Shown here piece after piece: positions 3,474-6,337 of a DNA stretch of 6,337 nt. Positions within the stretch are counted from its first letter, which is position 1; each line of letters begins with the position of its first letter. The position numbers were made by a program, and so were the translations under genes. The stretch lies in assembly GCA_023436825.1 (NCBI GenBank), contig JAEZHS010000504.1, positions 1 to 6,337 on the forward strand. The letters run 5' to 3'. Source of the stretch: Pseudomonadota bacterium. Lineage in GTDB: Bacteria > Pseudomonadota > Alphaproteobacteria > Reyranellales > Reyranellaceae. Under the pieces are notes generated by a model. It ran no database searches. It was given only the letters and a program-made list of their open reading frames with translations, and had not been told where the DNA came from.

Positions 3474-3944
3474 TTAAGCCGCGCTCTGCGCCTGGACCGA
3501 TTCGACCAGCAGAGCGTAGAGCGCCTCGGCATTTTCCGTCGCGCGCAGCTTCTCGACGAGGCTGCGGTCGCGCAGCAGGCGTGACACGCGCGCCAGCGCC
3601 TTGAGATGGTCGGCGCCCGCACCCTCGGGCGCCACCAGCAGGAACACGATGTCGACCGGCCGCTCGTCGATCGAATCGAAATCGATCGGATGGGCGAGCC
3701 GGGCGAACAGGCCGCGTGGTGCGGTGAGCGTGCCCATGCGGCCATGCGGGATGGCAATGCCGCCGCCGATGCCGGTCGAGCCCAGCCGCTCGCGCTCCAG
3801 TAGCCGATCGAACAAACGGCGTTCGTCGAGCTTCAGCATGGCCGCGCAGCGGGCCGCCAACTCGGCCAACAACGCTTTCTTGCCGGACGCCTTCACGCTG
3901 GCCAGAACGGCATCCGGACCGGTCAGCAAATCGGCAATTTCCAC
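3474..3944 (-). CDS. ptsN: Nitrogen-regulatory phosphotransferase protein EIIA-Ntr
   Basis: The 156-residue product is the terminal phospho-acceptor of the nitrogen PTS chain (PtsP, NPr, PtsN), a cytoplasmic regulator that carries no sugar in its usual role. It is a full-length PTS EIIA type-2 domain with MEIADLL at the start and GSTGIGGGIAIPHGR at 55-69. His67 in IPHGR is the residue phosphorylated in the family. The family features PVDIVFLLVAPEGAGADHLKALARVSRLL follow around 95-123. Translation starts at a GTG (3944-3942). No good Shine-Dalgarno sequence precedes it, but the N-terminus matches the family exactly. The gene follows rpoN on the same strand with a 116-base gap. The hpf gene that commonly lies between them is missing, and a promoter in the gap suggests ptsN can be transcribed alone. 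Confidence 0.93.
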   Translation of the reverse strand: MEIADLLTGPDAVLASVKASGKKALLAELAARCAAMLKLDERRLFDRLLERERLGSTGIGGGIAIPHGRMGTLTAPRGLFARLAHPIDFDSIDERPVDIVFLLVAPEGAGADHLKALARVSRLLRDRSLVEKLRATENAEALYALLVESVQAQSAA

Positions 3945-4003: not shown

Positions 4004-4032
4004 CCTATAGGCGCGTCGTCCGACCGGGTCAA
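4004..4032 (-). promoter_or_regulatory. Sigma-70 type promoter of ptsN
   Basis: On the minus strand TTGACC (4032-4027, five of six consensus bases) and TATAGG (4009-4004, four of six) are exactly 17 bases apart. The start would be near 3997, about 53 bases before the GTG of ptsN. The early leader holds a small stem GGCGC/GCGCC (4003-3999 with 3992-3988). The promoter lies fully in the spacer after the rpoN stop. Confidence 0.6.
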
Positions 4033-4060: not shown

Positions 4061-5599
4061 TCAGTCGGCCGGTCCGGCCAGTGCTTGCGAGGCGATCGCA
4101 GCACCGGGAAGCGTGTTCGGCAGGCTGCGATTGAGTCCGAGGCGGCCGAGCCGCCGGCGCTCCGCCGACGACGGAATGCGCATGGCCTCGCGATACTTGG
4201 CGACGGTGCGCCGCGCGATCTCGATGCCCTCGCCTTTCAGGAGATCGACGATGCGATCGTCCGACAGCGGCGCACTGGCGCTCTCGCCGCCGACCAGGTG
4301 ACGGATGCGCGAGCGCACCGATTCGGACGACACGACGACGCCCGGCGTCCGCGCCGGCAGCGCCGACGTGAAGAAATACTTCAGCTCGAAGATGCCGCGC
4401 GGCGTAGCGATGTACTTGTTGGAGGTGACGCGACTCACCGTGCTCTCGTGCAGCTCGGTCGCGATGGCGATGTCGCGCAGCACCAGCGGCTTGAGGGCGC
4501 TGACGCCGTGGCGGAAGAAGCCGTCCTGCTGGCGCACGATCTCGCGCGCGACCTTCAGAATCGTGGTCGCGCGCTGCTCGAGGGTCTTCACCAGCCAGTT
4601 GGCCGACTGGAAGCGCTCGGCGACGAAATCGCGGTCCGACTTGGCACGCGTGCCCTTCATCAATGTGGCGTGGTAGTTGCGGTCGACCAGCACCTTGGGC
4701 AGAGCGTCGGTGTTGAGCTCGATGTGCCAGCCCTCTTCGCCGGTATCGGCGTCCTTGGCCGGCCGCAGGAAGAGATCGGGCGCGACGGGTTGGATCGGCT
4801 CGAAGTCGAAGGCCTGGCCGGGGCGCGGATCGAGCGCGCGCAGTTCAGCCAGCATCTCGCGCAGGTCCTCGTCGTCGACGCCGCAGCGGCGACGCAGCTG
4901 TCCCAGCTCGCCCGCGGCCACCAGGCCGAGATTGTCGAGCAACGCCGTCATCGCCGGATCCAGGCGATTGCGTTCGGCAAGCTGCGCGCCCAGGCACTCG
5001 GCCACGGTGCGCGCGAACAGGCCGGCGGGCTCGATCTGGCGCAGCCGCGTCCACACCGCTTCGACCACGTCGAGGCCGACGCTGCAGGCTTCGGCGACAG
5101 CCGGCGCATCGAGGCGGCAATAACCCGCCTCGTCGAGGCCTTCGGCGAGCTTGAGCGCAATGCGCCGCTCTGCCGGTTCGGCGAACATCAGTTCAATCTG
5201 TTCCAGCACGTGGACGGCGAGCGAGCGCGGACGCTCGGAGACGAAATCGAGCGCGCCCGGCTGGTCGTCGCGCTGGCCGGCGCGACTCGCTGCCCCGTCG
5301 CCGCCACGGTCGGCATGCTCGCGCGTCCAGCGCTCGTCGGCGTCGGCAAGCGCGGGCGCAGCGGCCGCCAGCGCCTCGGCGGTGTCGGACGGTGCGTCGA
5401 CGATGGGCGCGTCCTGCTCGGCGATCGGGCCGTCATCGGCCGCGCCCTCGGCGAGCAACGGGTTCTTTTCGAGTTCCTGTTGGATGAAGGCGGCGAGCTC
5501 GAGATGCGAGAACTGCAGCAGCTTGATGGCCTGCTGAAGCTGCGGCGTCATTGCCAGGGTCTGGCGCGAAGCCAGGATCAGACTCGGACCGATACGCAT
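4061..5599 (-). CDS. rpoN: RNA polymerase sigma-54 factor
   Basis: The 512-residue product directs RNA polymerase to GG/GC promoters at -24/-12, which open only with an AAA+ activator. Region I is intact (SLILASRQTLAMTPQLQQAI at 6-25, then LLQF and QQELEKNPLL at 40-49). An acidic, Ala/Asp-rich region II follows (about 50-120), then the core-binding domain (about 125-300). The helix-turn-helix segment includes HESTVSRVTSNKYIATPRGI (384-403), followed by FELKYFF, and the RpoN box is perfect: ARRTVAKYRE (462-471). After the usual IPSSAERRR end there is an unusual tail of about 30 residues (LGRLGLNRSLPNTLPG and on). The ATG at 5599-5597 follows a G-rich site (GGTGGGGG). The long plus-strand frame over this gene is a shadow of its codon bias. 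ptsN follows; lptB is not directly upstream. Confidence 0.97.
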   Translation of the reverse strand: MRIGPSLILASRQTLAMTPQLQQAIKLLQFSHLELAAFIQQELEKNPLLAEGAADDGPIAEQDAPIVDAPSDTAEALAAAAPALADADERWTREHADRGGDGAASRAGQRDDQPGALDFVSERPRSLAVHVLEQIELMFAEPAERRIALKLAEGLDEAGYCRLDAPAVAEACSVGLDVVEAVWTRLRQIEPAGLFARTVAECLGAQLAERNRLDPAMTALLDNLGLVAAGELGQLRRRCGVDDEDLREMLAELRALDPRPGQAFDFEPIQPVAPDLFLRPAKDADTGEEGWHIELNTDALPKVLVDRNYHATLMKGTRAKSDRDFVAERFQSANWLVKTLEQRATTILKVAREIVRQQDGFFRHGVSALKPLVLRDIAIATELHESTVSRVTSNKYIATPRGIFELKYFFTSALPARTPGVVVSSESVRSRIRHLVGGESASAPLSDDRIVDLLKGEGIEIARRTVAKYREAMRIPSSAERRRLGRLGLNRSLPNTLPGAAIASQALAGPAD

Positions 5600-5629
5600 G
5601 TACCCCCACCCTGAAGGTCGGTTGGACCT

Positions 5630-5641
5630 CCCCGTACGGGG
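5630..5641. repeat. Perfect 12-bp palindrome in the rpoN leader
   Basis: CCCCGTACGGGG (5630-5641) is fully self-complementary. It spans the start point (about 5636) expected from the sigma-54-type promoter at 5645-5663. Next to it, AGGTC (5615-5619) and GACCT (5625-5629) form a second small stem in the rpoN leader, between the start point and the ribosome site. Either could be an operator or a leader hairpin. Confidence 0.5.
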
Positions 5642-5644
5642 GTC

Positions 5645-5663
5645 TAAGCAAAAGGCATGCCAA
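5645..5663 (-). promoter_or_regulatory. Sigma-54 promoter facing rpoN
   Basis: The minus strand reads TTGGCATGCCTTTTGCTTA from 5663 to 5645. Against the sigma-54 consensus (TGGCACG, four bases, TTGCT) only one base differs (T for C). The invariant GG (5661-5660) and GC (5649-5648) are exactly 10 bases apart, as required. Transcription would start near 5636 and give a leader of about 37 bases before the rpoN ATG. The site is entirely intergenic. It implies that rpoN is at least partly transcribed by its own product with an enhancer-binding activator. Confidence 0.65.
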
Positions 5664-5699
5664 GTCCCGGATCAAGCCCCCTCAGGGTAGTGTCTCAGA

Positions 5700-5730
5700 T
5701 TACTATTAGTAACCGGCATCCGATAGCCGG
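5700..5730. promoter_or_regulatory. Two abutting dyads: candidate operator between divergent genes
   Basis: TTACTATTAGTAA (5700-5712) is a perfect palindrome around a central T. It is followed directly by CCGGC (5713-5717) and GCCGG (5726-5730) flanking a smaller ATC-C-GAT dyad. Relative to the likely plus-strand start at 5750 they span about -50 to -20, where a repressor would block polymerase. Relative to the sigma-54 start at 5636 they lie about 64-94 bases upstream, close to where activators bind. No known binding motif was recognised. Confidence 0.5.
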
Positions 5731-5734
5731 GTGG

Positions 5735-5743
5735 TGGTATTCT
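5735..5743 (+). promoter_or_regulatory. Extended -10 promoter of the 74-residue protein gene
   Basis: TGGTATTCT has the extended TGn element followed by TATTCT (5738-5743), which can replace a -35 box; no good -35 is seen at 5715-5720. The -10 ends seven bases before the A of the ATG, so transcription would begin at the start codon itself and the mRNA would be leaderless. Confidence 0.45.
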
Positions 5744-5749
5744 ATCTCC

Positions 5750-5974
5750 ATGTCAAAGGGACCTAAAGGCGAGCGCAGGCCCGCCGATCTTAACAAGCGC
5801 GCCTTCGCCATTGTCCAGATCGCGACCGGCGGGGCTGAGGATACCCCCAAGAAAGAAAGCCACGCCAAGGCGGGAAAGGCGGGCGGACGGAGCCGAGCGC
5901 GCAGCCTAAGTGCTGATCGCAGAACGGAAATTGCGAAGAAGGCTTCGTCTATCAGATGGCGTAAATCTGACTGA
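5750..5974 (+). CDS. Small basic protein with a GGR and RRxEIAKKA-type tail, function unknown
   Basis: The 74-residue product begins MSKGPKGERRPADLNKRAFA, continues IVQIATGGAED, and ends with a basic tail: KAGKAGGRSRARSLSADRRT (41-60), then EIAKKASSIRWRKSD. The opening and the tail (Gly-Gly-Lys/Arg, S/T-x-x-x-R-R-x-E-I-A-K-K-A, then R-W) recall, from memory, small conserved proteobacterial proteins with no proven function, sometimes described as histone H1-like or nucleic-acid binding. An open extension starting at 5657 is not counted: it covers the sigma-54 site and the dyads and has poor codon use. No Shine-Dalgarno sequence precedes 5750, and the -10 box suggests a leaderless message. The gene diverges from rpoN, and another leaderless gene follows 44 bases later. 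GC content is lower than in rpoN, which may mark transfer. Confidence 0.75.
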   Translation: MSKGPKGERRPADLNKRAFAIVQIATGGAEDTPKKESHAKAGKAGGRSRARSLSADRRTEIAKKASSIRWRKSD

Positions 5975-5984
5975 CTCGGCTTGA

Positions 5985-6013
5985 TTGATTTCCGACTCCC
6001 TGCCTGCTATGCT
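5985..6013 (+). promoter_or_regulatory. Sigma-70 promoter of the right-edge gene
   Basis: TTGATT (5985-5990) and TATGCT (6008-6013) are 17 bases apart and each match four of six consensus bases. The -10 ends five bases before the ATG at 6019, placing the start at or within a base of the start codon. No ribosome site lies between them. Confidence 0.55.
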
Positions 6014-6018
6014 GGCAC

Positions 6019-6337
6019 ATGGAGTCACCGCCAGCACTCACCGACGATGATAAGACTACCCTTCTGGGGCTGGTGCTGCGCTATGGCGTGCTGCGCCGTG
6101 AAAACACCGTGGATCGGCTGGAAAAGGAGCGCATCGACGCCCGTATTACGGATCGCCTGAAGCGGATGGACCAATTGACTACGGCATTCCAAGGGTTCGG
6201 CTTCAGCAAGAATAAAGAGGGATATTTCCAGCAGATTCGCGCCGCGGTTGGGGAAGAGGCTTATGTCGCGATGTTGGCAAAGATCGACGCCATCCTCCTC
6301 GATCCCGAAGCCAAGCCGCCTGCGGTTGGCCCGGCAG
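6019..6337 (+). CDS. Unrecognised protein, N-terminal 106 residues, cut by the right edge
   Basis: An open frame runs from ATG 6019 to the end of the window without a stop. It begins MESPPALTDDDKTTLLGLVL and continues RYGVLRRENTVDRLEKERID. Residues 12-55 look like a long amphipathic, partly coiled-coil helix with regular Leu, Arg and Glu (VLRREN, VDRLEKER, ITDRLKRMDQL). A Gly/Phe segment FQGFGFSKNKEGYFQQIRAA (59-78) follows, and then another helix (EAYVAMLAKIDAILLD). There is no signal peptide or clear membrane segment in this part. I recognise no family. It has its own promoter 44 bases after the stop of the small basic protein gene, and again no Shine-Dalgarno sequence. The two may function together, but only their adjacency suggests it. 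Confidence 0.65.
   Translation, partial: MESPPALTDDDKTTLLGLVLRYGVLRRENTVDRLEKERIDARITDRLKRMDQLTTAFQGFGFSKNKEGYFQQIRAAVGEEAYVAMLAKIDAILLDPEAKPPAVGPA

Follow-up and report, generated by a model that had tools for sequence, protein, structure and literature searches.

Comparison with relatives strongly supports a genuine sigma-54 promoter of rpoN in the window (the whole stretch of 6,337 nucleotides that was analysed), and the best reading of this promoter, which we consider probable, is that rpoN would activate itself in an NtrC-dependent manner under nitrogen limitation. The original prediction had read a GG/GC pair ten bases apart, within a one-mismatch match to the sigma-54 consensus, in intergenic DNA and facing rpoN, and its coordinates, strand and spacing all proved right: on the minus strand GG lies at 5661–5660 and GC at 5649–5648 with 10 bases between them, and the site stands between rpoN, whose ATG is at 5599, and a small divergent ORF with a sensible start at 5750, 47 nt separating the 3' end of the site from the rpoN ATG. 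The geometry of sigma-54 promoters places the transcription start a fixed short distance downstream of the -12 element; with a start expected near 5636, the leader would be about 37 nt long. The features concerned are:

5663–5647, minus strand: sigma-54 (-24/-12) promoter TTGGCATGCCTTTTGCT, from a consensus scan and conservation in the rpoN 5' ends of relatives
5662–5657, minus strand: -24 element, TGGCAT
5651–5648, minus strand: -12 element, TTGC
5636, give or take about 2 nt, minus strand: transcription start as predicted from promoter geometry, 12 nt past the C of the -12 element
4061–5599, minus strand: rpoN, sigma-54, 512 amino acids, identified by Pfam (activator-interacting, core-binding and DNA-binding domains) and by NCBIfam models NF004596 and TIGR02395, above cut-off

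On the statistics of the window alone, the match is suggestive. TTGGCATGCCTTTTGCT departs from YTGGCACGNNNNTTGCW solely by a T for C at 5657, the sigma-54 consensus being TGGCACG-N4-TTGCW as printed in a passage of PMC4999443. With YTGGCACGN4TTGCW and at most one mismatch, it is the only match on both strands of the 6337 bases, where 0.07 are expected, and at least one match as good arose in 12 of 200 shuffles of the window; this modest showing favours the explanation that the site resembles the consensus by chance, or belongs to some other DNA-binding protein, with rpoN expressed without sigma-54. The looser pattern TGGCACN5TTGC, allowed up to three mismatches, is found 58 times in the window where 59.17 are expected and so shows no enrichment, and the rpoN-facing site is its only one-mismatch match there.

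What makes the identification of the promoter secure, beyond these statistics, is the comparison with relatives. Six close loci (83–88% rpoN identity) were found among the best 80 matches listed in a contig search, and the family of one close locus was searched: 74 of its 75 genomes gave an rpoN match, a single one in 72 of these 74. Every available rpoN 5' end was used, amounting to 74 loci, with G023 (no match) and G028 and G032 (no 5' end) left out. Nine distant family loci (56–62% identity) form the outgroup, and the group set, which probably represents Reyranella or its family, consists of 65 rpoN 5' ends from 63 genomes; the two 5' ends in G047 differ, one belonging to a second copy or a contaminant, and the two in G018 are identical and lie at contig ends, and so probably represent one gene.

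All 65 group loci carry the site, 45 of them perfectly, 19 with one mismatch and one with two, always in sense orientation and starting 59–65 nt before the ATG. Loss of the GG/GC pair in relatives that keep rpoN was looked for and did not occur, and the prediction that rpoN has its own sigma-54 promoter thus came through this comparison. The T for C of the window is common to 14 of the 65 loci, including the eight nearest relatives of the window (93–97% identity), and is therefore a lineage variant. Across 64 distinct sequences (the 65 loci and the window, less two duplicates), nine non-coding positions are invariant and these are exactly TGGCA and TTGC; the C/T position is divided 49/15, the next G is kept in 62 of 64 and the W after TTGC in 61 of 64. 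For the 34 sequences that include enough of the coding region, a tree gives a median of five changes at fourfold-degenerate rpoN sites, 9 of 167 of which never change, compared with zero changes at the nine promoter positions. Chance resemblance, or the mark of another protein, is scarcely credible against the invariance of precisely the sigma-54 consensus positions in 64 sequences and the presence of the same motif before glnK.

The gene upstream of rpoN in 61 of the 65 group loci is one that we take from its sequence to be rnd (RNase D-like), its end lying 77–90 nt from rpoN in 55 loci and 63–418 nt in 6; in two loci the contig is too short to tell the upstream gene, and in two (G013 and G037) rnd is not adjacent. 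Eight of the nine outgroup loci have lptB before rpoN, with a gap of 14–23 nt (G072 read by eye) and no site, and the ninth (G007), arranged as rnd–rpoN, has a three-mismatch site at -144. On the other side, the rpoN–ptsN gap measures 116 bp in the window and about 100–117 nt in 14 group loci that were inspected, 13 of them distinct, and is in every case too short to hold hpf; frames that a sequence motif marks as hpf-like occur in five of six other Alphaproteobacteria inspected and are absent from L007. The suggestion that the gene pair had lost its usual neighbours is thus borne out in that no lptB stands upstream and hpf has no room before ptsN, although this is a trait of the whole group and not of this genome. 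The gap itself contains promoter-like hexamers, which suggests that ptsN may have its own sigma-70-type promoter:

3474–3944, minus strand: ptsN (EIIA-Ntr-like), by PF00359; TIGR01419 reaches 133.6 bits, just below its cut-off of 138.7
4004–4032, minus strand: candidate sigma-70-type promoter of ptsN, TTGACC, 17 nt, TATAGG, read from the sequence

In the window, homology to relatives ends at the rnd stop codon, and DNA with the divergent small ORF lies beyond:

5664–5685, minus strand: former rnd–rpoN intergenic DNA, 22 bp from the rnd stop codon kept beside the promoter, by comparison with G033
5686–5698, plus strand: end of an insertion-sequence-like element, GGTAGTGTCTCAG, the same terminal sequence as in the G037 element
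5750–5974, plus strand: divergent small ORF MSKGPKGERRPADLNKRA..., an element passenger, with a relative at the same place in G037 and a DNA match in G013

The ORF at 5750–5974 matched no Pfam or NCBIfam family. In G037, a 2.6 kb element with terminal inverted repeats is inserted at the rnd stop, rnd is intact and ends 2.7 kb before rpoN, and the transposase of the element is IS1-like (PF03400 at 23.9 bits, just under the cut-off of 24.1); G013 has a related ORF and element end before rpoN. A similar insertion sequence (ends GGTANTGTCTCAG, MSKGPKGE-type divergent ORF) is found before the rpoN promoter in the window (5686–6337), L195 (G037) and L135 (G013), inserted at the rnd stop codon where this is readable (window and G037). 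In these three loci all but 21–22 bp of the upstream DNA has been displaced by insertion-sequence DNA, and the site is kept.

Between the predicted start and rpoN, two further features can be placed in the leader:

5613–5631, minus strand: leader hairpin GGAGGTC / GACCTTC with loop CAACC, about +6 to +24, from covariation
5603–5611, minus strand: Shine-Dalgarno-like GGGTGGGGG, from the sequence and the G-rich columns 68–76

The hairpin covaries across the 64 sequences, with 31 cells changed on both sides versus 13.1 in shuffles and none of 500 shuffles as high, although shuffling of this kind leaves the effect of kinship in place. Such a covarying hairpin just past the predicted start would fit a promoter that is real, but conserved mainly for the leader RNA hairpin and its effect on rpoN translation or mRNA stability, with sigma-54 input secondary. 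We consider this very improbable: conservation is much stronger in the promoter than in the hairpin, the leader gave no Rfam family at gathering scores, and an outer helix masking the Shine-Dalgarno sequence was rejected, as its covariation was no higher than in shuffles.

Each genome has few matches to YTGGCAYGN4TTGCW, 2–11 in number: the ten genomes hold 48 in total, compared with 15 when the pattern is reversed, and all ten have one before rpoN. Several of the perfect matches fall in long open frames and may be chance. Other matches, among the 30 with loci, stand before glnK, a RutA-like gene and transport genes, names that we assign from the sequence. In case of glnK, a site with at most one mismatch is present in all 27 located loci (30 genomes searched, 3 not located) and starts 61–98 nt before the gene, so that the glnK-amtB promoter of the same genomes shares the consensus of the rpoN site. 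The glnK promoter often faces a second, divergent sigma-54-like site (for example in L210 and L213), whereas the rpoN promoter does not. In G017 and G053, of one contig each (5.79 and 5.44 Mb), the only perfect consensus sites are those before rpoN and glnK. One-mismatch matches are not enriched over the reversed control in these genomes (28 versus 35 in G017, 12 versus 28 in G053), and hence perfect matches alone are used for statements about the regulon. Weaker sites that are probably real lie before an apparent urtA (one mismatch) and glnB (two mismatches), and the regulon would thus be larger than two.

A lenient search for sigma-54 activator domains in G017 and G053 returned two strong matches per genome, NtrC and NtrX: GAFTGA is present in NtrC and absent from NtrX, and it is likewise missing from all 14 other places that exceed the family cut-off. 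The NtrC identity follows from the G003 protein, which passes TIGR01818 (693.9 bits versus a cut-off of 558.6), and an NtrC-type protein with GAFTGA is found in G001–G006, G017 and G053; that the window's own genome has one, we infer from these relatives. A strong NtrC-type match was obtained in 24 of 25 genomes searched, the exception being G048, which gave no strong activator match at all (one of 19 relatives in that search) and whose assembly is perhaps incomplete. Further activator-like proteins occur in several genomes, which makes NtrC the common candidate and not in every case the sole one. The NtrX proteins (L295, L296, L090, L091) are without the GAFTGA loop, and for this reason the NtrX of the group is probably unable to activate sigma-54.

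The search for a site to which such an activator might bind gave little. No NtrC dyad or other inverted repeat shared by the regions upstream of glnK and rpoN stood out, glnK included. The window's best match to the NtrC consensus used has three mismatches, and one-mismatch matches to this consensus occur in 9 of 62 rpoN versus 5 of 26 glnK upstream regions, counts that have no control. Dyads are enriched upstream of rpoN at fixed places, about -300, -228, -172, -166 and -32 from the site, against a mononucleotide-shuffle control. Synonymous conservation in rnd is raised about 94–119 codons before its end and the last ~60 codons show no synonymous constraint; the fixed-place dyads look like conserved rnd codons and we do not count them as evidence, although one of them is possibly an activator site. 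Activators at high levels are able to act from solution, and the promoter may work without a nearby enhancer, or may serve mainly as a binding site.

It is because no activator site was found, and because the site survives displacement of the upstream DNA in three loci, that autorepression stays a real rival: sigma-54 holoenzyme would occlude an overlapping sigma-70-type promoter, the net effect would be negative, and activator-dependent firing would be minor or absent. We judge this unlikely, although it is the main rival. When 63 loci were scored with a loose matrix, the best sigma-70-like -35 hexamer began 5–8 nt ahead of the site in 27, which makes an overlapping sigma-70-type promoter possible, and the mean best score is 7.7 versus 5.7 in mononucleotide shuffles; in many relatives the site lies within a CTGACT-N17/18-TAGACT-like arrangement. 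Against this, the sigma-70-like match is not universal and is weak in the lineage of the window (TTGATC-17-TTTGCT), and a strict sigma-70 scan upstream of rpoN found nothing. Moreover, a site acting by occlusion would not have to face rpoN or keep a set distance from the ATG, but in all 65 loci it does both, and the consensus has been kept down to the W that follows TTGC (in 61 of 64).

The wider survey bears on the same question. It took in 74 named Alphaproteobacteria that lie outside the group and are the closest in rpoN among the matches listed. The 300 bp before rpoN contain a site with two mismatches or fewer in sense orientation in 4 of them and in reverse in 20 (L031, L033, L034, L039, L049, L052, L054, L055, L060, L062, L068, L070–L075 and L077–L079), compared with about 0.3 per strand in shuffles. 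Examples of reverse sites are TTGGCCCAAAAATTGCT in Rhizobium-type loci and CTGGCCTGTTTCTTGCT in Phenylobacterium loci. Sites in this orientation are unable to drive rpoN, which suggests that binding alone may be selected in those lineages; such sites could repress rpoN, and their presence speaks for occlusion. Of 162 genomes searched across the class, 124 gave an rpoN match; 67 of these, which lie outside the group, had the N-terminus matched and were retrieved, hold one sense and three reverse sites where 0.25 are expected. In the 80 loci where lptB ends less than 60 nt before rpoN the gap never contains a site, although so short a gap makes this partly trivial. Sites are present in 28 of the 61 loci in which the gap is longer or lptB was not found: 24 of the 44 named loci and 4 of the 17 from the class-wide search. 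These counts are not independent events, because many of the named loci are closely related to one another. Forward matches before rpoN in L042, L064 and L066 lie inside the lptB coding sequence and were rejected as evidence. Sense sites with one or two mismatches outside the group, in L018, L056, L063 (Caulobacter), L011 and G207, are possible independent cases.

Known systems provide parallels for either sign. A passage in PMC6925177, citing Cullen et al. 1994, describes for Rhodobacter capsulatus a NifA–sigma-54 promoter before nifU2 that raises rpoN, together with a weak constitutive promoter for basal supply. The likeness of this superoperon lies in rpoN being under a sigma-54-dependent promoter, which is known here by sequence only; there, however, the promoter is NifA-driven and stands before nifU2 in a nitrogen-fixation operon, whereas here it immediately precedes rpoN, the window contains no nif gene, and NtrC alone was found to carry GAFTGA in two single-contig relatives. 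In Mesorhizobium loti and Rhizobium etli, according to part of PMC3538637, rpoN2 lies behind prxS in a (potential) NifA–RpoN-regulated operon. The rhizobial precedent invoked in the original prediction thus holds for these NifA-driven rpoN2 copies, which are second, symbiosis-linked copies, whereas the rpoN considered here is the only one found in 72 of 74 genomes with a match. The same part of PMC3538637 gives rpoN of Rhizobium leguminosarum as negatively autoregulated: this shares autogenous control of a single rpoN and lends weight to occlusion, its sign is opposite to that proposed here, and many of the surveyed rhizobial loci carry the reverse sigma-54-like site. From the R. capsulatus and rpoN2 parallels, self-activation of rpoN is already known in kind; what sets this case apart is a direct promoter on the only rpoN, invariant across the group, with NtrC as the sole GAFTGA activator found in the two single-contig genomes. 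No earlier description of the group's rpoN promoter was found in the open-licence literature, where a search for Reyranella and rpoN gave unrelated titles only.

Self-activation through NtrC would then proceed as follows. Sigma-54 holoenzyme would bind 5647–5663 as a closed complex, which phosphorylated NtrC would open under nitrogen limitation, and transcription would run from near 5636 through the short leader hairpin into rpoN. The gene would thereby belong to its own small NtrC regulon with glnK-amtB and be autogenously raised when nitrogen is short, with the first sigma-54 coming from a weak sigma-70-type promoter, or from rnd read-through where rnd is adjacent. Comparative sequence covers the site, its orientation, spacing and conservation, and the activator inventory in relatives; actual transcription, NtrC as the activator, the positive sign and the basal source are what we infer. 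More tentatively, and with a good deal of doubt, the best-assembled relatives may hold a minimal circuit of one NtrC, one sigma-54 and two full-consensus promoters (glnK-amtB and rpoN): a positive-feedback, possibly bistable, nitrogen-stress switch without a nearby enhancer, which would have arisen when rpoN left the lptB operon, whilst elsewhere an rpoN separated from lptB would have gained a site of opposite orientation and opposite sign.

Sigma-54 is usually treated as fairly constant, with regulation left to its activators. If self-activation is true, the level of sigma-54 would itself be part of the nitrogen response, and if the minimal circuit is true, the sigma factor would be one of its own principal targets. 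Since there are few activators and few full-consensus targets, the feedback is directly testable. As the sites are seen only where rpoN is separated from lptB, in sense or reverse orientation depending on the lineage, these bacteria would offer a natural setting in which to compare how autoregulation changes sign in evolution.
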